Source: Oscillatoria salina IIICB1 (GTDB taxonomy: Bacteria; Cyanobacteriota; Cyanobacteriia; Cyanobacteriales; SIO1D9). From it: DNA of 64,000 nt. Below are positions 2,926 through 20,782 of this stretch, piece by piece (position 1 is the stretch's first letter; the number at the start of each line of letters is the position of its first letter). The translations under genes and the position numbers were made by a program. The notes below the pieces were generated by a model that searched no databases, had not been told where the DNA came from, and worked only from the letters and a program-made list of their open reading frames with translations. Where the stretch lies: assembly GCF_020144665.1 (NCBI RefSeq), contig NZ_JAAHBQ010000006.1, positions 1 through 64,000 of the forward strand. The letters are read 5' to 3'.

Positions 2926-4059
2926 TTAATTAATACTAGCGACAACTTCTCCAGTTTCGCTGGTATCATAACCACCGAGAGCAATTAACTGAGAATGTAA
3001 GCGTCGGTGTCCTAAAATATTGAGTAACTGCTGGACTGGTTTTTCTGGCAAATAATCTTGCAAAATTGCTAAATCGTATCGCGACTTTTTTAAGGGAACA
3101 AAATCTAAGCCAAAAGCTGTGGCTAAAGCTTTGGTACTCACTCCCGCATCAATATTTTCATTTTTTACTGCATGAGCAACTTCTCGATGACTGCGAACAA
3201 TATGAGAGAAACCTTGTATAGCATCGAAGGGGATTTTTGCTTTATTCAATAAATATTCTAAAAGTTGACGACTACCAGAGCCAATTTCGCGATTAACAAT
3301 AGTAATATCTGGGTCAGATAACTGAGCGATAGTAGTCAAATTTTGCGGATTTCCTGGTTTAACTAGTAAACCTTCCTCCCAAATACCTAAATTAATCAGA
3401 ACTGTAGGGCGATCGCCTAATACTTCTTTGACAAAACTGGTATTATAAGAATCAGTTTCGGGATCGTATAAATGCACGCCGGCAATATGTACTTCTCCCC
3501 GACGCAAACGGTGTAAGGCTTCCATACTGTTAGCAAAACTCCAATACACCCGTAAGTCAGGATACCAATGTTCGGCAACTTTTGCCCAAAGTGAAAGCAC
3601 TGGAGTGCAACCAGCGATCGCTACTGTCCGATTTAAGTTTTCTGGTGCTGTCCAAAGTTTAACCTGAATTGGAGAATCTTCGCTTTCACACCAACCTTCA
3701 CCATCGGCGGGAATCATCTCGGTGCGAAATGCGTCCTCTCCTAAAAGTGGATGAGCAATCAGTTTTCCCCCTACTTCCACTAAAGCAAGTCGGAAAGGGT
3801 AAGCAACCGGAACTGCTTGATTGGGTAGCGCTTCCAAGCTAAGATTTTCATTTTCTAACCAAAATAAATCTTCCACTCGACATCCTAATGCTTTCGCTAA
3901 ACGCAAAGCAACTGTAGCTGAGGGAGCATATTGTCCCGACTCCACACCGCTAATTGCTTGACGAGAAACGCCAGCAATTTGCGCTAAATCTTGTTGACTC
4001 AAGCCTAAGCGACTGCGGATTTGTTTGATATTATTGCGTAATTCACTCTCATTCTTCAT
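2926..4059 (-). CDS. XRE-type HTH regulator fused to a periplasmic-binding-protein-like ligand domain
   Basis: 377 residues. Residues about 8-65 form an HTH_3/XRE DNA-binding domain (LGLSQQDLAQIAGVSRQAIS, then GQYAPSATVALRLAKALG). Residues about 90-370 match the PBP-like domain (PF12727 type) found in molybdopterin- and molybdate-associated proteins, with features such as VAIAGCTPVLSLW, INLGIWEEGLLVKPGNPQN and REIGSGSRQLLEYLL. It is the last gene of a modA-modBC-regulator run on one strand, 39 bases after modBC. By context it should sense molybdate, tungstate or a related ligand and control the transporter; this is inference, since the sequence does not reveal the ligand. The gene converges on argD. 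Confidence 0.85.
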   Translation of the reverse strand: MKNESELRNNIKQIRSRLGLSQQDLAQIAGVSRQAISGVESGQYAPSATVALRLAKALGCRVEDLFWLENENLSLEALPNQAVPVAYPFRLALVEVGGKLIAHPLLGEDAFRTEMIPADGEGWCESEDSPIQVKLWTAPENLNRTVAIAGCTPVLSLWAKVAEHWYPDLRVYWSFANSMEALHRLRRGEVHIAGVHLYDPETDSYNTSFVKEVLGDRPTVLINLGIWEEGLLVKPGNPQNLTTIAQLSDPDITIVNREIGSGSRQLLEYLLNKAKIPFDAIQGFSHIVRSHREVAHAVKNENIDAGVSTKALATAFGLDFVPLKKSRYDLAILQDYLPEKPVQQLLNILGHRRLHSQLIALGGYDTSETGEVVASIN

Positions 4060-4098
4060 GGAAAATTGGCGCTTTCTTCGTCAAACTAGAAGGATTAT

Positions 4099-5970
4099 CT
4101 ACTTTTCCATCATAATTAACCGCAGTGGCTCTAATTGAATATACCAAGGAAAAGGTCGAGCTTTGATTTCCGTCCATTTTTCTTTATATACTTCGGCTTG
4201 CAGATGATATTCCTGAGAGTCGTAGGGTGGTTGATGTAGTTTCAGAAATAAAGTAACTCGGTGCTGAGTTTCGCTGGTAAAAACAAGCCAGCAAGGAAAA
4301 ACATTTTCTTGGCTTGATTCTAAACTAAAAGTCAAATGATGAGCGCGAATTCCTACACAACTTAGTTGTTCGGGAATGGGTTCGACAACGCGCAAGTTAC
4401 AGCCCCAATCAAGTGCTTTGATTCGTTGAGAGTCGATTTTTTGAGCGTGGGAAAAGTTTTTACATTCTGTCACCTGGGCAACTTTAAATGTTGGCGGTCG
4501 TTCAAAGATTTCTTGTTTCGATCCAGTCGCAATTACTTTTCCTTGGTCAAGAATTAATAAGTTATGGCAAAGACGATAAGCTTCTTCGAGTTTGTGGGTG
4601 ATAAATAAGGTGACTCCTGGATAATTAGCCAGAGTTTCATTTAGTAGTTGTTCGATTTGACTGCGAAGATAAGTATCTAATGCGGAAAGAGGTTCATCTA
4701 AAAGTAATGCTTCTGGTTCGATTGCTAAAGCCCTCGCTAAGGCTACTCGCTGTTGTTGTCCGCCTGAAATTTGCTGTGGGTAGCGTTGTTCTAAACCCTG
4801 TAATTGCATCATTTTCAGGTATTTATTAACTCTTTGGCTGCGTTCTCGTGGCGGTAAATTTTGTAAACCGAAGGCGATATTTTGGGCGATAGTAAGATGG
4901 GGAAAAAGGGCGTAATTCTGGAAAACAAAACCAATTCTACGCTTACGACTGGGAAGATTGATTTTTCGTTGGGAATCAAATAAAATTCGTCCATTTAAAA
5001 CAATTCGACCTTGATTTGGAGTTTCCAAACCAGCTAAACAACGTAAGGTCATGCTTTTTCCAGAACCGGATGCACCTAAAAGTCCTAAAGGTTTTTGAGC
5101 GCTAGTAAAGCTAACATTGAGTTGAAAGTTAGGTATGTTTTTTTGGAGATTGACTAAGAGTTCTGCTGGTTTTTGGGGAAGGGGCGATCGCGCGAATTTG
5201 CTAATCTGATTTTGGTTCGATATCTGAAAATCTTGAAACTGACCGAAAATTAGCAAATTGAGTAAACTTTTGCTAAAGGTACTTGATTTAAGCTGAGTAG
5301 TCTGCTTAGTATCTTGACGCTCGGACCAATAATTAATTGCCGCGATCGCACTTAAGGAAATTGCTACCATTACTAGTACCCAATTGAAAGCTTGACCCAT
5401 TTTCCCTGCTTCTGCGGCAAAAAAAATAGCGATCGGTATAGTCTGAGTTTTGCCAGGAATACTACCTGCTACCATTAAGGTTGCCCCAAATTCACCTAAT
5501 GCTCTCGCAAAGGCTAAAATAGTCCCAGCAACTACTCCTGACCCAGCTAAAGGTAGTAAAATTAACCAAAACAGTTTCCATTCAGAAACTCCCAAAGTAC
5601 GAGCGCAATTAATTAAATCATCATCAACTTGTTCAAAAGCACCTCGCACCGTTTTATACATCAAAGGAAAAGCAACTACAGTCGCCGCAATTACTGCGGC
5701 TGACCAAGTAAAAATAATATTAATTCCTTGTTGCTGCAAAAGTTTTCCTACCGGACTATTTCTCCCTAATAATAACAGCAGAAAAAACCCTATTACTGTT
5801 GGTGGCAACACTAAAGGTAAGGTGAAAATTCCATCAATAATTTCTTTTCCTTTTCCTTGATAGTTTACCATCCATCTTGCGGCAGTAATCCCTAAAAAAA
5901 AGGCAAAAATTGTCGCTACTAACGAAGTTTTTAGGGAAATCCATAAAGGAGATAAATCTATTTCTGTCAT
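4099..5970 (-). CDS. modBC: Molybdate ABC transporter permease-ATPase fusion (ModBC)
   Basis: 623 residues combining two ModABC subunits in one chain, as is usual in cyanobacteria. Residues about 1-215 are the membrane permease (several hydrophobic helices and the EFGATLMVAGSIPGKTQTIP coupling loop that meets the ATPase). After a polar linker, residues about 280-500 are the ATPase: Walker A GASGSGKS, signature ISGGQQQR, Walker B EALLLDEPLSALD, and the switch histidine in FITHKLEEA. The C-terminal 110 residues form a TOBE/Mop-like part. It moves molybdate inward using ATP, supplied by ModA. The start ATG (5968-5970) directly abuts a 150-bp heptamer array, so no ordinary Shine-Dalgarno sequence is present. 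The next in-frame Met would remove part of the first membrane helix, so this start is kept. Confidence 0.95.
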   Translation of the reverse strand: MTEIDLSPLWISLKTSLVATIFAFFLGITAARWMVNYQGKGKEIIDGIFTLPLVLPPTVIGFFLLLLLGRNSPVGKLLQQQGINIIFTWSAAVIAATVVAFPLMYKTVRGAFEQVDDDLINCARTLGVSEWKLFWLILLPLAGSGVVAGTILAFARALGEFGATLMVAGSIPGKTQTIPIAIFFAAEAGKMGQAFNWVLVMVAISLSAIAAINYWSERQDTKQTTQLKSSTFSKSLLNLLIFGQFQDFQISNQNQISKFARSPLPQKPAELLVNLQKNIPNFQLNVSFTSAQKPLGLLGASGSGKSMTLRCLAGLETPNQGRIVLNGRILFDSQRKINLPSRKRRIGFVFQNYALFPHLTIAQNIAFGLQNLPPRERSQRVNKYLKMMQLQGLEQRYPQQISGGQQQRVALARALAIEPEALLLDEPLSALDTYLRSQIEQLLNETLANYPGVTLFITHKLEEAYRLCHNLLILDQGKVIATGSKQEIFERPPTFKVAQVTECKNFSHAQKIDSQRIKALDWGCNLRVVEPIPEQLSCVGIRAHHLTFSLESSQENVFPCWLVFTSETQHRVTLFLKLHQPPYDSQEYHLQAEVYKEKWTEIKARPFPWYIQLEPLRLIMMEK

Positions 5971-6120
5971 CAGTTATCAGTTATCAGTTATCAGGGAACA
6001 GTTATCAGTTATCAGGGAACAGTTATCAGGGAACAGTTATCAGGGAACAGTTATCAGGGAACAGTTATCAGGGAACAGTTATCAGGGAATAGTTATCAGT
6101 TATCAGTTATCAGTTATCAG
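5971..6120. repeat. Heptameric tandem repeat array (STRR), 21 units
   Basis: An unbroken run of 7-bp units, mostly CAGTTAT and CAGGGAA, many alternating as a 14-bp higher-order repeat, followed by a final CAG. There are 21 whole units. The array fills the modA-modBC spacer next to the modBC start codon. It belongs to the short tandemly repeated repetitive sequences known from filamentous cyanobacteria. Read from the minus strand each CAGTTAT becomes ATAACTG, so the run is full of stop triplets. Confidence 0.95.
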
Positions 6121-6205
6121 TTTACTACTCACTTTTTCCAAGTATTCCTTGTCTCCAATCTCTACTGGTAACTGATAATTAACTGGTAACTAAAAACCAA
6201 AATTA

Positions 6206-7018
6206 CTAATTCCTTTTAAACCCGTACTCCTCAAATTTAGCTTGGGCTTTTTCGCTCAAAAGAAAGGCGACAAATTCCTTAGCTGCTTCTGTATTTTGAG
6301 TATTTTTAATTACCGCTACTGGATAAATAATTGGTTTGTGAGTATCTGCGGATGCAGTAGCAATTACCTTAACTTTGTCTGAAACTTTCGCATCTGTTCC
6401 ATAAACAATTCCCGCATCAACGTTACCTGTTTCGACATAAGAAAGAACTTGACGCACGTCTTTAGCAAACACAGTTTTGCTTTGAATTTCGTCGTAAATA
6501 TTCAGCGAAGTTAAAACTTCTTTACCATATTGTCCGGCGGGGACGCTTTCGGGTTCTCCTAAAGAAAATCGCTCTACTTTACTACTAGATAAATCTTGAA
6601 AATCAGTAATATCTAGCGAATTGTTAAGAGCAACAATTAAAACCACTTCGTTTTTGAGGAGATTTTGACGAGTTCCTTCTAGTAATAAACCTTTAGCTTC
6701 TAAAGCATTCATTTGCTTTTCTGCCGCCGAAATAAAGACATCTACAGGCGCTCCTTGTTCGATTTGTTGTTGTAAGGAACCAGAACTACCAAAGTTGTAA
6801 TTAATTATCGTATTGGGATGTTCCTGTTGATACATTTCTCCTACTGCTTTCATGGCATCTTGCATACTAGCTGCTGCTGAAACTGTCAGTTCTGATGGTT
6901 CTAATTGTGCATTTGAAGTCTCGGAGATAGCGTCTGGGCTGATTTGGTTACAACCGACTGCGATTAAAAAGGTCAGGATAAAACAAGTCAGCAAGCTAAG
7001 TACCCTTCTTCTGTTCAT
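6206..7018 (-). CDS. modA: Molybdate ABC transporter substrate-binding lipoprotein
   Basis: 270 residues, the normal length for ModA. The N-terminus MNRRRVLSLLTCFILTFL followed by IAVGC is a lipoprotein signal peptide with the lipobox cysteine near residue 23, so the mature protein is anchored outside the inner membrane. The mature part shows ModA features: LTVSAAASMQDAMKAVGE at the start of the fold, NFGSSGSLQQQIEQGAPVDV in the oxyanion site, and GNVDAGIVYGTDA. It binds molybdate (or tungstate) and delivers it to ModBC. It is the first gene of the operon; 236 bases, mostly heptamer repeats, separate it from modBC. A palindrome with an NtcA-type core lies upstream. Confidence 0.95.
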   Translation of the reverse strand: MNRRRVLSLLTCFILTFLIAVGCNQISPDAISETSNAQLEPSELTVSAAASMQDAMKAVGEMYQQEHPNTIINYNFGSSGSLQQQIEQGAPVDVFISAAEKQMNALEAKGLLLEGTRQNLLKNEVVLIVALNNSLDITDFQDLSSSKVERFSLGEPESVPAGQYGKEVLTSLNIYDEIQSKTVFAKDVRQVLSYVETGNVDAGIVYGTDAKVSDKVKVIATASADTHKPIIYPVAVIKNTQNTEAAKEFVAFLLSEKAQAKFEEYGFKRN

Positions 7019-9426: not shown

Positions 9427-10855
<1,429 letters not shown>

Positions 10856-12900: not shown

Positions 12901-12942
12901 GTATTCATTAATACAAACTCAAATCAGAAGTAGAGATAAAAT
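12901..12942 (+). promoter_or_regulatory. NtcA-activated (class II) promoter of the purine gene set
   Basis: GTATTCATTAATAC (12901-12914) is an exact GTA-N8-TAC NtcA site. It is followed after exactly 22 bases by TAAAAT (12937-12942), a TAN3T -10 box. This is the canonical geometry of NtcA-dependent promoters, where the NtcA site replaces the -35 element. Transcription would start near 12949, giving a 5' leader of about 116 bases before the permease. The rest of the 260-base spacer from the porin start shows no gene. Confidence 0.75.
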
Positions 12943-13064: not shown

Positions 13065-14465
13065 ATGATCCAACAAAATCAAACAATAACTCAAGAAACA
13101 GAAACCTTAGAAACCGTCCAGACATCAACTATAAGATCGGATTTAATCTATGGTTTAGAAGCTCGTCCACCATTTGTAGAATCAGTATTTGTCGCTTTGC
13201 AGCACGTTTTTGCTTGTTTTGTCGGCATTATTACACCTGGTTTAATTATTTGTGGAGCTTTAGAAGTAGAGCCAACAGACACAACTTTTATCCTCAGTAT
13301 GTCTTTGTTTGTTTCGGGAATTGCTACTTTTATTCAAGCGAAGAGATTTGGACCAGTAGGTTCGGGATTGCTAAGCGTTCAAGGAACAAGTTTTGCTTTT
13401 TTAGGTCCAATTATTGCCGCCGGGTTAGCCGTAAAAGAAGCAGGAGGAAGCCCAACTGAAGCATTAAGTTTGATTTTCGGCTTATGTTTATTTGGTGCTT
13501 TCGTCGAAATTTTAATTAGCCGCTTTCTGCATTTAGCTAACAAAATTATTACACCGTTGGTAACAGGAGTTGTCGTAACTTTAATTGGTTTAACTTTAAT
13601 TAAAGTAGGAATTACTAGCATTGGTGGCGGTGTGGTTGCTCAAAGAAATGAAACTTTTGGGAGTCCGGTTTATTTAGGTATTGCGGCTTTAGTTTTGATT
13701 GTGATTGTAGCGCTTAATAGCTTGAATAATAACTATTTGCGAATGTCATCTGTGGTGATTGGTTTAGCAGTGGGATATTTGGTTTCAATTCCTCTAGGAT
13801 TGGTGAGTTTTAGTAATTTGAGTGGCTTACCCTTAATTACGATTCCGATACCATTTCGTTATGGTTTGGGGTTTGATTTTGGTGCTTTTATTCCCTTCGC
13901 TTTTTTATATATGATTACTGCGATTGAATCGATTGGCGATTTGACTGCAACTTCAGCTATTTCTGGCGAACCCATTGAAGGAGCAAAATATTTTCGGCGA
14001 CTAAAAGGAGGAGTTTTAGGTGATGGGATAAACTCGATTATCGCAGCTTGTTTTAATACCTTTCCGAATACTACTTTTAGTCAAAATAATGGAGTGATTC
14101 AACTAACAGGAGTTGGTAGTCGTTATGTGGGCTACTTTATTTCGGTAATTTTTGTAATTCTGGGCTTGTTTCCGATTGTTGCAGGTGTTTTTCAGGCGTT
14201 ACCTCAACCAGTGTTAGGTGGTGCAACATTAGTAATGTTTGCCACAGTTGCCGTTGCGGGAATTAAAATTATTTCCTGCGTTGACTTAAGCAAACGGAAT
14301 TCGATTATTTTGGCGATCGCGTTAGGATTAGGTTTGGGTGTCACGTTTGAACCAACAATTCTCGATAGTTTACCAAATCTAATCAAAAGTATCTTCTCCT
14401 CCGGAATTTCCACAGGAGGGCTGACAGCTTTAGTTTTAAACCTCATTTTGCCAGGGAAAGAGTAG
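13065..14465 (+). CDS. Purine permease, NCS2 (nucleobase:cation symporter 2) family, likely urate/xanthine
   Basis: 466 residues with about 12-14 hydrophobic segments. NCS2 landmarks are present: QHVFACFVGIITPGLI in helix 1, the substrate helix around GSGLLSVQGTSFAFLGPIIA, ESIGDLTATSAISGEP in helix 8 carrying the signature glutamate, and the helix 10 motif NTFPNTTFSQNNGVIQLTGV. The TFSQNNGVI form is typical of the urate/xanthine rather than the uracil branch. It should import purines with protons across the inner membrane. It is the first gene behind the NtcA-type promoter, 14 bases before hpxO, and corresponds in role to HpxP in the Klebsiella hpx cluster. Exact specificity (urate, xanthine, hypoxanthine) is not decided by sequence. 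Confidence 0.9.
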   Translation: MIQQNQTITQETETLETVQTSTIRSDLIYGLEARPPFVESVFVALQHVFACFVGIITPGLIICGALEVEPTDTTFILSMSLFVSGIATFIQAKRFGPVGSGLLSVQGTSFAFLGPIIAAGLAVKEAGGSPTEALSLIFGLCLFGAFVEILISRFLHLANKIITPLVTGVVVTLIGLTLIKVGITSIGGGVVAQRNETFGSPVYLGIAALVLIVIVALNSLNNNYLRMSSVVIGLAVGYLVSIPLGLVSFSNLSGLPLITIPIPFRYGLGFDFGAFIPFAFLYMITAIESIGDLTATSAISGEPIEGAKYFRRLKGGVLGDGINSIIAACFNTFPNTTFSQNNGVIQLTGVGSRYVGYFISVIFVILGLFPIVAGVFQALPQPVLGGATLVMFATVAVAGIKIISCVDLSKRNSIILAIALGLGLGVTFEPTILDSLPNLIKSIFSSGISTGGLTALVLNLILPGKE

Positions 14466-14479
14466 GGAGAATAATCATC

Positions 14480-15643
14480 ATGTACGGACTAAAAGCGATC
14501 GTTATTGGTGCCGGAATGGGCGGCTTGACCGCAGGTATTGCCCTGCGTCAAGCTGGATATCAGGTAGAAATCTATGAAAAAACGAGCAAACTACGTCCGG
14601 CAGGGGCTGGTATTTCTCTGTGGTCGAATGGCATTAAAATATTAAATAAACTCGGACTGGGAAAGGAAATTGCCGCAATTGGCGGACAAATGAATCGGAT
14701 GGAATATCGCAGCCATACCGACGAACTTCTCAATCACGTTGATTTAGCAGCCTTAGTCGCAAAAGTCGGTGAAAAACCTTATCCCGTAGCGCGTACTGAC
14801 TTACAACAAATGATGTTAACTGCATTTGGCGAGTCAGATGTGCGTCTGGGGATGCGCTGCGTTAGCGTTAAAGAAGACGAAGATAGTGCTACAGCTATTT
14901 TTGAAGATGGTAGTACCGCCACAGGAGATATCATTATCGGTGCAGATGGGATTCATTCGGTGGTGCGAAGTTATGTCACCGGGAAAGAAACTCAGCCTCG
15001 TTATGCAGGTTACGTGAATTGGAACGGTTTAGTCCCAGCTAGCCCAGATTTGGCAGATAATGATGTTTGGGTTATCTATGTTGGAGAAGGTAAACGTGCT
15101 TCAATGATGCCTGTGGGGGGAAACCGTTTTTACTTTTTCTTTGGTTGTCCGATGTCTGAAGGGACGAGTGTTGAGCCAGAAAATCGGCGGGCAGAATTAA
15201 AGGAAATCTTTGCAGGTTGGGCGCAACCCGTACAAAATTTAATTGAGAAACTCGATCCTTACCAACTTAATCGTTTAGAGATTTGTGACCTCGATCCGCT
15301 ACCGAATTTGGTTAAAGGTAGAATTGCTTTATTGGGAGATTCCGCTCATGCAACTACGCCAACTTTAGGACAAGGAGGCTGTCAAGCGATGGAAGATGCG
15401 GAAGTTTTGTCTCGCTTTTTGGTGACAACTAATCTGAGTGTGGCAGATGCTTTACTACGTTATCAAGGGGAACGCAAAGAACGAACTGCAAATTTGGTCT
15501 TGAAAGCACGCAAACGCACAGATACAATTTATGGCAAAAATGCTGAAATTACCCAGGAATGGTACGAACAACTGAAAGCAGAAGAAGAAAAAGACGTAAC
15601 CGACGCGATCGCCAAAATTATTTTGGGAGGTCCGTTACGCTAA
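14480..15643 (+). CDS. hpxO: FAD-dependent urate hydroxylase
   Basis: 387-residue flavoprotein monooxygenase (group A). It converts urate to 5-hydroxyisourate with NADH and O2, replacing uricase. Visible: the FAD dinucleotide-binding motif IVIGAGMGGLTAGIALRQAG at the N-terminus, RTDLQQMM and IIGADGIHSVVR (DG motif), and ALLGDSAHATTPTLGQGGCQ (GD motif). The stretch YAGYVNWNGLV...VGEGKRASMMPVGG...RFYFFF closely resembles Klebsiella HpxO, including the positions of the urate-contacting arginine (GEGKR) and tyrosine (RFYFFF). The C-terminal LKARKRTD...WYEQL...ILGGPL also matches that enzyme. The stop is directly followed by the uraH start. Confidence in HpxO over a generic monooxygenase is high because of the neighbours. 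Confidence 0.93.
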   Translation: MYGLKAIVIGAGMGGLTAGIALRQAGYQVEIYEKTSKLRPAGAGISLWSNGIKILNKLGLGKEIAAIGGQMNRMEYRSHTDELLNHVDLAALVAKVGEKPYPVARTDLQQMMLTAFGESDVRLGMRCVSVKEDEDSATAIFEDGSTATGDIIIGADGIHSVVRSYVTGKETQPRYAGYVNWNGLVPASPDLADNDVWVIYVGEGKRASMMPVGGNRFYFFFGCPMSEGTSVEPENRRAELKEIFAGWAQPVQNLIEKLDPYQLNRLEICDLDPLPNLVKGRIALLGDSAHATTPTLGQGGCQAMEDAEVLSRFLVTTNLSVADALLRYQGERKERTANLVLKARKRTDTIYGKNAEITQEWYEQLKAEEEKDVTDAIAKIILGGPLR

Positions 15644-16006
15644 ATGATAGGTAAGTTGACTACTCATGTTTTAGATACAGCCCACGGTTGTCCAGCCGCA
15701 GGAATCGAAATTGAACTCTGGGTTGTTGCGGCTGACTCACAAGAAAGAAATTTACTGAAAACGACCAAAACTAATTATGACGGACGCACTGATGTCCCTT
15801 TGTTAGCCGATGAGCAATTCAAGAAGGGCGTATACGAGTTAGTTTTTGCCGTGGGAGAGTATTTTGGTCAATTTGCGGAAACTGAGGCAGCGCTGCCCTT
15901 TTTAGACCGCGTTCCGATTCAATTTGGAATTGCCGATCCCACCGTTCACTATCACGTTCCCTTGTTGGTTTCACCTTGGTCTTACAGTACCTATCGAGGT
16001 AGCTAA
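15644..16006 (+). CDS. uraH: 5-hydroxyisourate hydrolase (transthyretin-like)
   Basis: 120 residues, full length. It hydrolyses 5-hydroxyisourate, the HpxO product, to OHCU. The family signatures are complete: [20 protein letters not shown] at the N-terminus (catalytic His), the mid-chain Asn-Tyr-Asp-Gly-Arg segment ([11 protein letters not shown]), and the C-terminal [19 protein letters not shown] with the diagnostic YRGS end. The ATG follows the hpxO TAA with no gap; GGGAGG inside the end of hpxO, about 10 bases upstream, serves as ribosome site. No signal peptide, so it is cytosolic like HpxO. It is equivalent to HpxT of Klebsiella. Confidence 0.96.
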
Positions 16007-16010
16007 TTAT

Positions 16011-16045
16011 CAGTAAACAGTAAACAGTTATCAGTTACCAGTTTA
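16011..16045. repeat. Short heptamer array (5 units)
   Basis: CAGTAAA, CAGTAAA, CAGTTAT, CAGTTAC, CAGTTTA in tandem, starting 5 bases after the uraH stop. Member of the CAGTNNN STRR family dispersed in this window. Confidence 0.85.
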
Positions 16046-16198
16046 CTAAGTACAAGACAAAATCCGTTCTTTTGCTGGAAATCTAAGAACAAAATGTCAA
16101 AAAATTGAAGCTATGGCATGAGTTGAAATAAAATAGACAAATTGAAGTTTTCGTAAAATAATCAAGTTAAACGGAAAACTCTAACAAATCTCTAAATA

Positions 16199-16352
16199 AT
16201 ATCAAATCCGTTTGATTAATCAGACAACGAGCAAGATGTTTAGGCATTCGCCTACGCTTCGCGAACGTACTACGAAGCAATTTTTACGCTCGGAGTGGGA
16301 GCGTCTCGCTCCCTAAACTAATAAACAATGGTCGATTATTCGGATTTGATAT
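16199..16352. mobile_element. MITE-like element with terminal inverted repeats
   Basis: ATATCAAATCCG at 16199-16210 is exactly complementary to CGGATTTGATAT at 16341-16352, and the similarity extends inward (ATTAATC on the left, GATTAT on the right). The 154-bp interior has no ORF but holds a hairpin (GGGAGCG TCT CGCTCCC) and a GCATTCGCCTACGCTTCGCG stretch typical of small dispersed cyanobacterial repeats. I could not identify a target-site duplication. It lies in the 385-base gap (16007-16391) that splits the purine gene set, between uraH and the DUF1993 gene. Confidence 0.6.
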
Positions 16353-16391
16353 AACTTTCACTAGAGAAGTTAACTCTTAAGGAAAGATCGA

Positions 16392-16904
16392 ATGTCAAGG
16401 CAAAAGATAGATTCAATTCAAACCTTATTCCAAAGCCGCTTAGAAACTCTTGAGCATCTTTTCAAGACAGGACAGACTTATTTCTCTGATGATGAATCTT
16501 TGCTGCAAAAGCGTATTGCACCTGATATGTTTCCCTTTGGTACTCAGATTGCTTTCACCTGCAATCAACCATACAACTTTTCTCTGTGGTGCGAGGGAAA
16601 ACCTTTGCATAACCTAAACCCAGAAGTTGTCTCTCTCGCGCAGGGATACGAACACATAGCAAACACAAAAAAGCTTCTTTCAAACATTAAAGTTGAAGAT
16701 GAAAAGCTAACTGAGGAAATCCGTCTTGAATTGGGAGAGGGACTTTATATGGAGTTGACGGGTAGCGTCTATGTCAACGAATTTTTAATTCCCAACTTCT
16801 ACTTTCATCTTATCACTGCTTACGATATTCTGCGTATGGCTGGTGTACCAATTGGCAAAAAAGATTATATGATACACTTGATGCCTTTAGTCAGAAAAAA
16901 ATGA
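16392..16904 (+). CDS. DUF1993 family protein
   Basis: 170 residues. The motif set is that of DUF1993, a probable DinB-like four-helix fold: KRIAPDMFPFGTQIAFTCNQ near residue 55, a polar middle, and the C-terminal signature IPNFYFHLITAYDILRMAGV followed by IGKKDYM. No biochemical function is established for the family to my knowledge. It sits inside the purine-catabolism set, on the same strand, between uraH and the Rieske oxygenase, separated from each by a repeat-bearing spacer. The start ATG follows AGGAAAG with close spacing. A link to purine use is only suggested by position. Confidence 0.8.
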   Translation: MSRQKIDSIQTLFQSRLETLEHLFKTGQTYFSDDESLLQKRIAPDMFPFGTQIAFTCNQPYNFSLWCEGKPLHNLNPEVVSLAQGYEHIANTKKLLSNIKVEDEKLTEEIRLELGEGLYMELTGSVYVNEFLIPNFYFHLITAYDILRMAGVPIGKKDYMIHLMPLVRKK

Positions 16905-17069
16905 AGATATATTTTTAATTAATTCACAGTAGTTGTTGAGTTCTTTTCGAGCAAACTCCTTCTTCATCATCCTTTGAAAGTTTCGAGACTAAGTACATAA
17001 CAAAAGTTGAAAAATCCAGTTTATTCTCCTAACCCCCAATTCCTAATCACCAATCCCTAATCACCAATT

Positions 17070-18089
17070 ATGTTAGTTACAAAACAACCTCTTTTCCGTA
17101 AATTCTGGTATCCAGTTATTCCTCTAAGTGAATTATCCGAACAACCGCAAGCTTTTGAGTTGTTAGGTGAACCTTTGGTACTTTGGTTAGATAGAGAAGG
17201 TAAACCTGCGGCTGTACGCGATCGCTGCTGTCATCGTAGTGCAAAACTTTCTTTAGGGAAAGTTGTTGAGGGTAATATTTGTTGTCCTTATCACGGTTGG
17301 ACATTCAATTCGTCAGGAATTTGCGTTTGCGTTCCTCAAAACAAGCATAATTCAATTTCTCCTAGTTATAAAGTCCCAGCTTATCGTTGTGTCGAAAAAT
17401 ATGGCTATGTTTGGGTATGTTTAGACGAACCATTGATAAATATTCCTGACATTCCTGAAGCTGAAGATTCTGAATATCGCTTAATTCCTGAATTTTACGA
17501 ACGCTGGAATTGTGCGGGTTTGCGAGTGATGGAAAATGAATTAGATATGGCTCATCCTACATTTGTTCATACTACAACTTTTGGTAGTGAAGAGCATCCG
17601 ATTCCCGATGTTATGGAGTTCCAAGAAACCGAATGGGAATTATATTATCATAGCGTTCTCGGTGTCGAAAATCCTCAACAACAACAGCAAAACTTAAACC
17701 TTGAAGAAACGAAAACACTGCGTACTATTGACGGAACTTGGTTTGTGCCGTTTACTGTTAAACTACGCATAGCTTACCCAAATGGTAAAGTACATATCAT
17801 CGTTAATACGATGACACCGATTAATGATTCGGCTTCGCAAATGGTACAATTTTGCTTGCGTAATGATACAGAAGCTGAAGTAAAAAGTAGTGAAGTTATT
17901 GCTTTCGATCGCGCGGTGACTTTGGAGGATAAGCGTATTTTAGAATCAACTGATTATGATGTACCCCTCGATGTTAGTCAAGAACAACACATGATTACTG
18001 ATAAACCAGGAATTATTATCCGACGGAAAATAGCAGCGCTTTTGAAAAAATATGGTGAGGTTGAACAAACTAGAATAAGATTTTTATGA
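17070..18089 (+). CDS. Rieske non-heme iron oxygenase, candidate HpxD-like purine oxygenase
   Basis: 339 residues. An N-terminal Rieske domain (about 7-110) has the 2Fe-2S ligands C-x-H in DRCCHRSAKLS and C-x2-H in CCPYHGW. The catalytic domain carries the mononuclear iron motif NELDMAHPTFVH (Asp, His-x4-His). It resembles ring-hydroxylating oxygenase alpha subunits of the short PaO/VanA type. Its last four bases overlap the start of uraD (ATGA), so the two are co-translated. In Klebsiella the Rieske enzyme HpxD, with reductase HpxE, is implicated in hypoxanthine oxidation within a comparable cluster; that function is my best inference here. No reductase gene is present, so electrons would come from a general ferredoxin or an enzyme encoded elsewhere. 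A role on another purine intermediate cannot be excluded. Confidence 0.85.
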   Translation: MLVTKQPLFRKFWYPVIPLSELSEQPQAFELLGEPLVLWLDREGKPAAVRDRCCHRSAKLSLGKVVEGNICCPYHGWTFNSSGICVCVPQNKHNSISPSYKVPAYRCVEKYGYVWVCLDEPLINIPDIPEAEDSEYRLIPEFYERWNCAGLRVMENELDMAHPTFVHTTTFGSEEHPIPDVMEFQETEWELYYHSVLGVENPQQQQQNLNLEETKTLRTIDGTWFVPFTVKLRIAYPNGKVHIIVNTMTPINDSASQMVQFCLRNDTEAEVKSSEVIAFDRAVTLEDKRILESTDYDVPLDVSQEQHMITDKPGIIIRRKIAALLKKYGEVEQTRIRFL

Positions 18090-18589
18090 GTAAATATTCT
18101 TTGACTGAACTTAATCAAATGAATCGAGAAGAATTTGTGGATGCGTTGGGTGAAGTATTTGAAGATACTCCCGCGATCGCGCAGAAAGTTTGGGAGCAAA
18201 AACCGTTTACCGATCTTAGCCAATTGCATCAAAAAATGGTAAACATAGTTGAAAATTTTAGCCCAGATCGACAGCTAAAATTAATTCGAGCGCATCCGGA
18301 TCTTGGTAGTAAAGCTAAAATGGCTCCTGCTTCGGTAAATGAGCAAGCTGGAGTCGGTTTAGATCGATTGGATTTGGCTGAATACGATCGCTTTCAGTTA
18401 CTCAATCAAGCTTATAAAAATAAGTTTGGTTTTCCTTTTATTCTTGCGGTAAAAGATCGCGACAAGGATAGTATTCTAGAAGAGTTCGAGCGTCGTTTAG
18501 GAAACAGTTTATTAGCCGAAAAACAGCAAGCACTAAAGGAAATATTTACGATCGCTTGGTTTCGCTTGAAAGCAATGATTAGAGAATAA
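18086..18589 (+). CDS. uraD: OHCU decarboxylase
   Basis: 167 residues, full length. It decarboxylates 2-oxo-4-hydroxy-4-carboxy-5-ureidoimidazoline to S-allantoin, the step after UraH. Family marks: LNQMNREEFVDALGEVFEDT at the N-terminus, the active-site histidine in LIRAHPDLGSKA, a central segment around LDLAEYDRFQLLNQAYKNKF, and GFPFILAVK near the C-terminal third (transition-state contact). The start overlaps the Rieske oxygenase stop by 4 bases, indicating translational coupling. It is equivalent to HpxQ of Klebsiella. Allantoin-degrading genes are not in this window. Confidence 0.96.
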   Translation: MSKYSLTELNQMNREEFVDALGEVFEDTPAIAQKVWEQKPFTDLSQLHQKMVNIVENFSPDRQLKLIRAHPDLGSKAKMAPASVNEQAGVGLDRLDLAEYDRFQLLNQAYKNKFGFPFILAVKDRDKDSILEEFERRLGNSLLAEKQQALKEIFTIAWFRLKAMIRE

Positions 18590-18677
18590 AATATTATTGG
18601 AATACTTTGTTTATGAAAAAGCGTTTTAATTTTGGGGAATTAGTGCAAGCTTGCTCTGGTAGCTCCCTATGCTTCTA

Positions 18678-18733
18678 AATTAGGGTTATTATTCTGAATT
18701 AGGGTTGACAAAGGTAATTTAATCTAATATAAA
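18678..18733 (+). promoter_or_regulatory. Sigma70 promoter with upstream direct repeat before the deaminase gene
   Basis: TTGACA (18705-18710), 17 bases, TATAAA (18728-18733) form a consensus-grade promoter; a start near 18740 leaves a leader of about 220 bases. AATTAGGGTT occurs twice (18678-18687 and 18697-18706), 19 bp apart, the second copy running into the -35 box, as expected for a regulator site. A weak GTA-N8-TAA match lies inside the spacer. Confidence 0.65.
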
Positions 18734-18739
18734 ATAAAA

Positions 18740-18960
18740 AATGCTACAGATATTTTCTAGAAACGTTGCAGACAACGTCTTTACAAATTGAGGAAAACAC
18801 CAGCAAGTGCACGAATAAATAAGGGAGGATGATTAGCGAGACGCTCGCACTACCAAGGTAAGCTAACTATCTTTGAAAGTAAATAAACAAACGAAAAAAA
18901 CAAGAAATATAAATCAAGAAAGCTAATTCGACAAATAATAACTGGTAACTGATAACTAAG
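18740..18960 (+). other. Long untranslated leader of the deaminase gene
   Basis: No ORF of note. Two short hairpins are visible: ACGTTG CAGA CAACGT (around 18762-18778) and GCGAG ACG CTCGC (around 18837-18849), followed by heptamer-like ACTGGTAACTGATAACT just before the start codon. I could not match it to a known riboswitch class. Confidence 0.35.
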
Positions 18961-20328
18961 ATGACAACTCTGCTAGTAAAAAACATTCACACTTTAGTAA
19001 CAATGGATGCAGCGCGACGAGAAATTCGTGACGGTGCTTTATTCATTCGCGATAATGTAATCGAACAAGTGGGAACAACTTCGGAACTTCCTCAAACAGC
19101 CGAGGAAATGTTAGACTTGGAAGGAAAATATGTCGTACTTCCCGGATTTGTTAATACTCATCATCACTTCTTTCAAACATTAACACGGACAGTTCCGGCT
19201 GCACAAAATTGCGATTTGTTTCACTGGCTAAAAAATTTATATCCAATTTGGGCAAATCTTACTCCTGAAGGAGTGTATATTAGCACGAAAATGGCAGTGG
19301 CAGAGTTAATTCTTTCTGGCTGTACAACTGCTAGCGATCATCTCTACCTTTACCCGAATAATTGTACCCTGGATGATGAAATTCGTGCCGCTCAAGAAAT
19401 AGGAATTAGGTTTCATGCTAGTCGAGGAAGCATGAGTGTGGGTGAAAGTTTAGGTGGGCTACCTCCTGATTCTATAGTAGAAAAAGAAACGGCAATTTTG
19501 CAAGATTCGCAGCGAATTATCGAGCAATATCACGATAATTCTCGTCATTCAATGTTACGCATTACTTTAGCTCCTTGCTCCCCATTTTCGGTTTCCCAAG
19601 ATTTGATGCGAGAATCAGCAGCAATGGCTCGTAATTATCCGGGAGTGAGGTTACATACTCATTTAGCAGAAAATGAGACAGATGTCAAGTATAGTTTAGA
19701 AAAATTTGGTTTAATTCCCGGCGATTATGCGGAATCTGTAGGTTGGTTGGGAGAGGATGTTTGGCACGCTCATTGTGTAAAATTGAGCGATCGCGCGATC
19801 GCCAAATTTGGCAAAACTGGTACAGGAGTTGCTCATTGTCCCTGTAGCAATATGCGTCTAGCTAGCGGGATCGCCCCGATTCGCAAAATGCTCGATCGTA
19901 ATGTACCAGTGGGTTTAGGAGTCGATGGTGCTGCTTCTAACGATGGCACAAATTTGCTTTATGAAGCCAAAATGGCAATGCTTTTAGCTCGTGTCGGTAG
20001 CTGCGAAGCTAGTGCGATGACAGCCCGCGACGTTTTAGAATTGGCAACCCTAGGGGGTGCAAAAGTTCTCGGAAGAGACGATATTGGCTATCTCGCACCG
20101 GGAATGTCAGCAGATTTTATAGCAATTAATAGCGATCGCCCCCAATTTGCCGGAGCTCAAGATCGGATCGCAGCTTTAGTCTTTTGTCAAGCCGAGCGAG
20201 TCGATTATAGCTTTATTAATGGTAAAAAAGTAGTCGATCGCGGTCAATTAACTACAGTTGACTTAGGTCAATTGGTGGAGAAAACTAACCAAATGTCTCA
20301 GAAAATGAGGAGTGGATCTCGTATGTGA
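18961..20328 (+). CDS. 8-oxoguanine / guanine deaminase (amidohydrolase superfamily)
   Basis: 455 residues. Metal-dependent TIM-barrel amidohydrolase: the HxH motif in GFVNTHHHFFQTLTRTVP, metal histidine in LHTHLAEN, HAHCVKLS, and the metal aspartate in LGVDGAASNDGTN. The segment NTHHHFFQTLTR...DLFHWLKNLYPIWANLTPEG is characteristic of the 8-oxoguanine deaminase group, which turns 8-oxoguanine into urate; guanine to xanthine is the related alternative. Both products feed HpxO directly or after oxidation. It is the last gene of the purine set but has its own strong promoter and a long leader. Cytosolic; no signal peptide. The ATG at 18961 is the only reasonable start. Confidence 0.85.
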   Translation: MTTLLVKNIHTLVTMDAARREIRDGALFIRDNVIEQVGTTSELPQTAEEMLDLEGKYVVLPGFVNTHHHFFQTLTRTVPAAQNCDLFHWLKNLYPIWANLTPEGVYISTKMAVAELILSGCTTASDHLYLYPNNCTLDDEIRAAQEIGIRFHASRGSMSVGESLGGLPPDSIVEKETAILQDSQRIIEQYHDNSRHSMLRITLAPCSPFSVSQDLMRESAAMARNYPGVRLHTHLAENETDVKYSLEKFGLIPGDYAESVGWLGEDVWHAHCVKLSDRAIAKFGKTGTGVAHCPCSNMRLASGIAPIRKMLDRNVPVGLGVDGAASNDGTNLLYEAKMAMLLARVGSCEASAMTARDVLELATLGGAKVLGRDDIGYLAPGMSADFIAINSDRPQFAGAQDRIAALVFCQAERVDYSFINGKKVVDRGQLTTVDLGQLVEKTNQMSQKMRSGSRM

Positions 20329-20403
20329 CTCGATTTCCGGTGATTTACACTCGAATTAGTAAAAAAGAGTATAATTGAATACAGACACAAGTTTAATCGT
20401 TCA

Positions 20404-20497: not shown

Positions 20498-20782
20498 ATG
20501 AAGAAATCGTTAATTCACAACGTCGCCAACCAATTGCAATGGCAAACTTATCAGCAATTAGAATTACTTCCTAATTCAGTGGAGAATCCTCAAGCCAAAA
20601 CAGCCAAATTTGCCTTGGGACTAGATTTAGTCTGGCGGCTGTTAATCATCGCCTTAACTAAAGAACTGATTTACCAAGACCAACAAGTAGAATATTTAGA
20701 GCGGTGTTGGGCGTTTGATTTCGAGGAAAATAACTCAACTAATTCTCAGACACTGCAAAAACTGTGGACGCTGATCAAGTAA
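20498..20782 (+). CDS. Small hypothetical protein, 94 residues
   Basis: I do not recognise a family. The sequence is helical and amphipathic, with a moderately hydrophobic centre (GLDLVWRLLIIALTKELIYQ) too charged at its end to be a clear membrane helix, and an acidic C-terminal third. A possible ribosome site AGAGG lies about 8 bases upstream of the ATG. It lies downstream of the purine set on the same strand but beyond a hairpin and 170 bases, so it is probably a separate unit. Function unknown. Confidence 0.6.
   Translation: MKKSLIHNVANQLQWQTYQQLELLPNSVENPQAKTAKFALGLDLVWRLLIIALTKELIYQDQQVEYLERCWAFDFEENNSTNSQTLQKLWTLIK

Follow-up and report, generated by a model that had tools for sequence, protein, structure and literature searches.

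A Rieske oxygenase in cyanobacterial urate gene clusters is a candidate molybdenum-free xanthine hydroxylase

Xanthine is oxidized to urate by XdhAB, a molybdenum enzyme that uses water and NAD+, and in Klebsiella the Rieske oxygenase HpxD and its partner HpxE stand in for molybdenum xanthine dehydrogenase (XDH). Klebsiella HpxD combines Rieske and VanA_C domains and is encoded within an hpxO-uraD-uraH-permease cluster. We analysed a window of 64,000 nucleotides from the cyanobacterium Oscillatoria salina (the whole stretch of DNA under study; host genome code G000, 6.0 Mb, 99.99% complete) that holds a comparable arrangement, with a Rieske oxygenase proposed here to replace XDH in the same way. 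The cluster spans positions 13065–20328 on the + strand in the order permease-hpxO-uraH-DUF1993-Rieske-uraD-8-oxoguanine deaminase, and all of its genes except the DUF1993 and Rieske genes exceed curated NCBIfam cut-offs. It differs from the Klebsiella system in having neither HpxE nor an HpxR-type neighbour. The proposed reaction is that of XdhAB, but the two enzymes are unrelated and the Rieske protein would draw on O2 and ferredoxin. The features of the locus are as follows.

12901–12914, + strand: NtcA-like GTAN8TAC motif, intergenic, before the permease gene (11 such sites in the window versus 8.3 expected by chance)
13065–14465, + strand: NCS2 nucleobase permease, xanthine permease family (TIGR03173 pbuX, 436 bits, cut-off 414)
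14480–15643, + strand: hpxO, FAD-dependent urate hydroxylase, urate to 5-hydroxyisourate (NF033623, 612 bits, cut-off 500)
15644–16006, + strand: uraH, hydroxyisourate hydrolase (TIGR02962, 128.7, cut-off 87.45)
16392–16904, + strand: DUF1993 protein, encoded after uraH and before the oxygenase gene (PF09351, 2e-38)
17070–18089, + strand: Rieske non-haem iron oxygenase, 339 aa, candidate molybdenum-free xanthine hydroxylase (PF00355 and PF19112)
17226–17294, + strand: Rieske [2Fe-2S] motif, C53-x-H55 ... C72-x2-H75
17544–17570, + strand: mononuclear iron motif, D159-x2-H162-x4-H167
17907–17930, + strand: helix with D280 and T284, at the NdmA/NdmB specificity-pair positions, and the third iron ligand D287 (from the alignment)
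18086–18089, + strand: ATGA, 4 bases shared by the end of the oxygenase gene and the beginning of uraD
18086–18589, + strand: uraD, OHCU decarboxylase, 167 aa (TIGR03164, 190 bits, cut-off 96)
18961–20328, + strand: 8-oxoguanine deaminase, 8-oxoguanine to urate (NF006055, 689, cut-off 532; PDB 7ww2, 3hpa)

The oxygenase carries a Rieske domain (PF00355) and a VanA_C domain (PF19112) in Pfam, and all 58 aligned clade members share residues C53, H55, C72, H75, D159, H162, H167, D287 and E155, in agreement with an earlier sequence-only reading of this DNA that had reported complete Rieske and mononuclear iron ligands. An AlphaFold model (pLDDT 90.4) adopts the fold of Rieske oxygenases including GxtA/SxtT, NdmA and dicamba monooxygenase. 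GxtA and SxtT (PDB 7sze, 6wn3) are closest in fold, with TM about 0.8–0.85, but act on alkaloids and share 24–26% identity. By sequence, the top match in the Protein Data Bank is NdmA (3e-36), with NdmB also among the best; these enzymes (PDB 6ick, 6icl) likewise act on purines, but identity is 26–28% and the gene context in the window is one of urate rather than caffeine. The NdmA QL mutant is altered at two positions, where the window clade has D280 (58/58) and T284 (55/58), the HpxD clade has N and F (9/9), the same pair as NdmA, and NdmB has Q and L. NCBIfam assigns the window protein no function, and no HpxD model in NCBIfam was matched, even by Klebsiella HpxD itself.

In a tree of 42 rows including a relative from Variovorax, the window clade, which contains the Variovorax protein, and the Klebsiella HpxD clade each form separately with 100/100 support. 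Together with the 31% identity between Klebsiella HpxD and the window protein, these separate clades rule out HpxD orthology; the sequence-only reading had put the gene forward as a candidate hpxD, and of that proposal the purine-pathway Rieske oxygenase stands while the orthology falls. The data did not reject a single joint clade of the window type and HpxD (p-AU 0.17), which leaves parallel recruitment of two Rieske clades into one metabolic slot as a possibility only. The window protein probably works like HpxD without being its orthologue. True HpxD-type genes also exist in cyanobacteria, where those of genomes G183 and G288 fall within the 100/100 clade of Klebsiella HpxD. The protein is not one of the chlorophyll/pheophorbide oxygenases (CAO, PAO), grouping with which the earlier reading had named as evidence against itself: it has VanA_C and no PaO domain, and the host genome's own Rieske paralogues stand apart in the tree. 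NdmA and NdmB joined the window clade weakly (93/81, with a long-branch warning), which, with the top database match to NdmA, would be expected if the enzyme were an N-demethylase of methylated purines that supplies xanthine or guanine to the pathway. The D/T pair, distinct from both N/F and Q/L, argues against this function, and the distribution of XDH described below makes it very unlikely.

A scan of GTDB recovered 80 loci of the window-type Rieske gene, all cyanobacterial, and we scored linkage as lying within 8 kb of hpxO, uraH, uraD, puuE, guaD or 8-oxoguanine deaminase. Such linkage occurs at 25 of the 80 loci and at 12 of the 16 with more than 70% identity. Gene order varies, from Rieske-permease-hpxO-uraH-uraD-guaD in Xenococcus PCC 7305 (L145) to hpxO-uraH-Rieske-uraD in Microcoleus (L109) and hpxO-Rieske-guaD in G284, where guanine deaminase scores 590 bits (cut-off 375); this variation points to shared function beyond merely inherited order. 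The 4-base ATGA overlap with uraD was correctly described from the sequence, but it occurs in the window genome only, since eight other genomes with the Rieske gene directly before uraD have gaps of 103–283 bases. Coupling to uraD is thus not a general feature, and what is conserved of the proposed tie to a urate enzyme is membership of urate clusters. The DUF1993 protein had no counterpart among the neighbours of Rieske relatives in our survey of their loci. Guanine deaminase is close by at six GTDB loci as well as in G284, and its adjacency is common to the HpxD type in G183 and G288 and the window type in G284 and L123. At loci L195 (6852–9400) and L196 (9258–11948), cyanobacterial HpxD-type genes lie directly after guanine deaminase, without HpxE.

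We compared the distribution of these genes across 291 cyanobacterial genomes, using a MoCoBD_2 protein as the marker of XDH type. Rieske orthologues with at least 53% identity occur in 14 genomes and HpxO in 21. Of the 14 genomes with the Rieske gene, 12 have HpxO, as do 9 of the 277 without it (p = 4e-14, uncorrected for kinship). Among the 21 HpxO genomes, 12 encode an XDH-type MoCoBD_2 protein. Ten of these proteins score 330–352 bits, and the three checked belong to TIGR02965 XdhB; the other two score close to 235 bits, and the one checked, from G005, is XdhA-like. The remaining nine genomes have none, and all nine carry a Rieske gene, of the window type in seven and of the true HpxD type in two (G183 and G288). 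None of the 12 HpxO genomes with XDH encodes a window-type protein of at least 64% identity (Fisher p = 3e-4, uncorrected for kinship); five of them have members at 53–61%. The same contrast appears within families: in family f7, G039 and G129 have the Rieske gene without XDH and G157, G253 and G261 have XDH without the Rieske gene, and in family f26 G213 and G170 differ likewise. Among 20 further named genomes with HpxO and the Rieske gene, some of which may duplicate the 291-genome sample, 11 lack any MoCoBD_2 protein, three have XdhB-type XDH (two by NCBIfam, one by domain score) and six have a lower-scoring MoCoBD_2 protein, which in the two cases examined is a PaoC-like aldehyde oxidoreductase. 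Leptolyngbya PCC 6406 and Xenococcus PCC 7305 are culturable strains that lack XDH. The search for xdh homologues suggested earlier found no MoCoBD_2 protein in the host genome, hence no xanthine dehydrogenase of known type. N-demethylation by the Rieske protein would leave XDH-less genomes without a xanthine oxidase, and in other XDH-less genomes the same slot is taken by HpxD-type genes.

Several observations bear on the substrate. The nearest non-cyanobacterial relative, encoded on an unannotated Variovorax plasmid (46% identity), is preceded by a xanthine riboswitch (RF03054, 48 bits) that ends 35 bases 5′ of the start codon, and a second, divergent xanthine riboswitch (54.8 bits) precedes an NMT1-type transporter gene; the divergent pair lies between the two genes at 9899–9965 and 9720–9787 of locus L009. 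RF03054 riboswitches bind xanthine and uric acid and have been seen before HpxD-like dioxygenases (PMC7373994). Both Rieske types repeatedly have guanine deaminase, which produces xanthine, as a neighbour, the NCBI name for Klebsiella HpxD is molybdenum cofactor-independent xanthine hydroxylase, and a Moraxella plasmid carries a gene set much like that of the window with xdhABC in place of the Rieske gene. As a whole this evidence favours a conversion of xanthine to urate. From the riboswitch, the deaminase and the NCBI name, xanthine is also a likelier substrate than hypoxanthine, with which the earlier reading had linked Klebsiella HpxD. The 8-oxoguanine deaminase gene raises another route, in which the oxygenase would hydroxylate guanine at C8 and the neighbouring deaminase would turn the resulting 8-oxoguanine into urate. 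The family assignment of the deaminase is strong, and the window, G129 and Kamptonema (L117) each have an orthologue of it in one cluster with the Rieske gene. However, G039, G116 and G284 encode HpxO and the window-type Rieske protein with neither XDH nor an orthologous deaminase, which is evidence against the 8-oxoguanine route; guanine deaminase is the nearby gene instead at the six GTDB loci and in G284, and 8-oxoguanine deaminase also occurs with XDH and without the window-type Rieske gene in G070, G133, G170 and the Moraxella plasmid. We therefore regard guanine hydroxylation as distinctly unlikely.

No full-length match to an HpxE/VanB-type reductase was found anywhere in the host genome with Pantoea VanB-type and Klebsiella HpxE queries, extending to the whole genome what had been noted for the window; the only matches are three plant-type ferredoxins of about 100 aa. 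HpxE was likewise not found in the cyanobacterial HpxD-type genomes G170, G183 and G288, and a neighbouring reductase is also missing beside hpxO-linked HpxD-type genes on Acinetobacter and Pseudomonas plasmids. The wiring without a dedicated reductase thus holds for this genome, but a missing neighbouring reductase is not unique to the window Rieske gene, being common to cyanobacterial HpxD-type systems. The plant-type Rieske oxygenases PAO, CAO and choline monooxygenase are supplied with electrons by plant-type ferredoxin and need no dedicated reductase, although they belong to other branches of the family. Because the genome encodes no dedicated HpxE-like reductase, we propose a general plant-type ferredoxin as donor, and a photosynthetic ferredoxin is a plausible one.

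The explanation that we consider best, and hold to be somewhat probable, is that the oxygenase is a molybdenum-free purine C8-hydroxylase, most likely converting xanthine to urate, that replaces XDH and is fed by a general ferredoxin. It draws on gene content, linkage, the absence of XDH and HpxE, phylogeny and conserved ligands; substrate, regiochemistry and electron donor are what we infer. Electrons would pass from photosystem I or FNR through a general plant-type ferredoxin to the oxygenase, which would hydroxylate the purine base at C8, yielding urate from xanthine in place of molybdenum XDH; HpxO, UraH and UraD encoded in the cluster would carry urate on to allantoin, with 8-oxoguanine deaminase providing a parallel second entry to urate. 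Such an enzyme would fill a gap in cyanobacteria whose genomes encode urate hydroxylase and the enzymes that follow it while lacking a recognisable xanthine dehydrogenase, and it predicts urate formation that depends on O2 and ferredoxin and is free of molybdenum, in a family whose members and marker residues are now named. More tentatively, at rather less than an even chance, a second Rieske lineage of molybdenum-free xanthine hydroxylases, independent of HpxD and drawing electrons directly from photosynthetic ferredoxin, may have arisen in cyanobacteria; purine nitrogen scavenging would then be wired to the light reactions and not to NAD(P)H and molybdenum.

Other features of the family speak against xanthine hydroxylation, beside the D/T pair unlike that of HpxD and NdmA and the lack of an NCBIfam function. 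Eleven genomes carry the window-type Rieske gene without UraH (seven Calothrix-type or allied heterocystous strains, Scytonema NIES-4073, Synechococcus M44, G091 and G175), and none of the 11 has HpxO. Such strains would either release urate, use another route or employ the enzyme in a different role. At seven Calothrix-type loci (L125, L126, L128–L132) the Rieske gene and a nifE/nifN-like pair are arranged divergently, and HpxO and UraH were not found in those genomes searched. Members of more diverged sequence, some of them tandem copies and some beside NMT1 transporters, also occur in genomes with XDH and may have another specificity. The Calothrix-type genomes, and the guanidinium-alkaloid hydroxylases as closest solved folds, would fit an enzyme acting on another purine-derived or guanidino compound and only indirectly linked to the urate genes. 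We judge this unlikely, as it leaves both the Variovorax xanthine riboswitch and the pattern of HpxO and XDH unaccounted for.

The surroundings of the cluster contain further elements. The GTAN8TAC motif before the permease gene is a possible, weak sign of nitrogen control of the cluster, and another NtcA-like site lies at position 20369. Molybdate-type ABC transport genes, named by eye from the sequence, occupy positions 2926–7018, about 10 kb upstream of the oxygenase, and comprise a modA-like gene, a modBC-like fusion and a regulator with a binding-protein domain. The window contains no purine riboswitch; its sole riboswitch is of the glutamine type (RF01739, 20396–20464, + strand, 55.7 bits), downstream, followed by a 94-aa open reading frame at 20498–20782 with no family assigned. 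This pair also lies beside hpxO in Kamptonema L117 (6136–6219, − strand, reading frame 57% identical) and Chlorogloea L119 (10693–10769, + strand, 40%), and a homologue of the 94-aa frame is present in genome G129.
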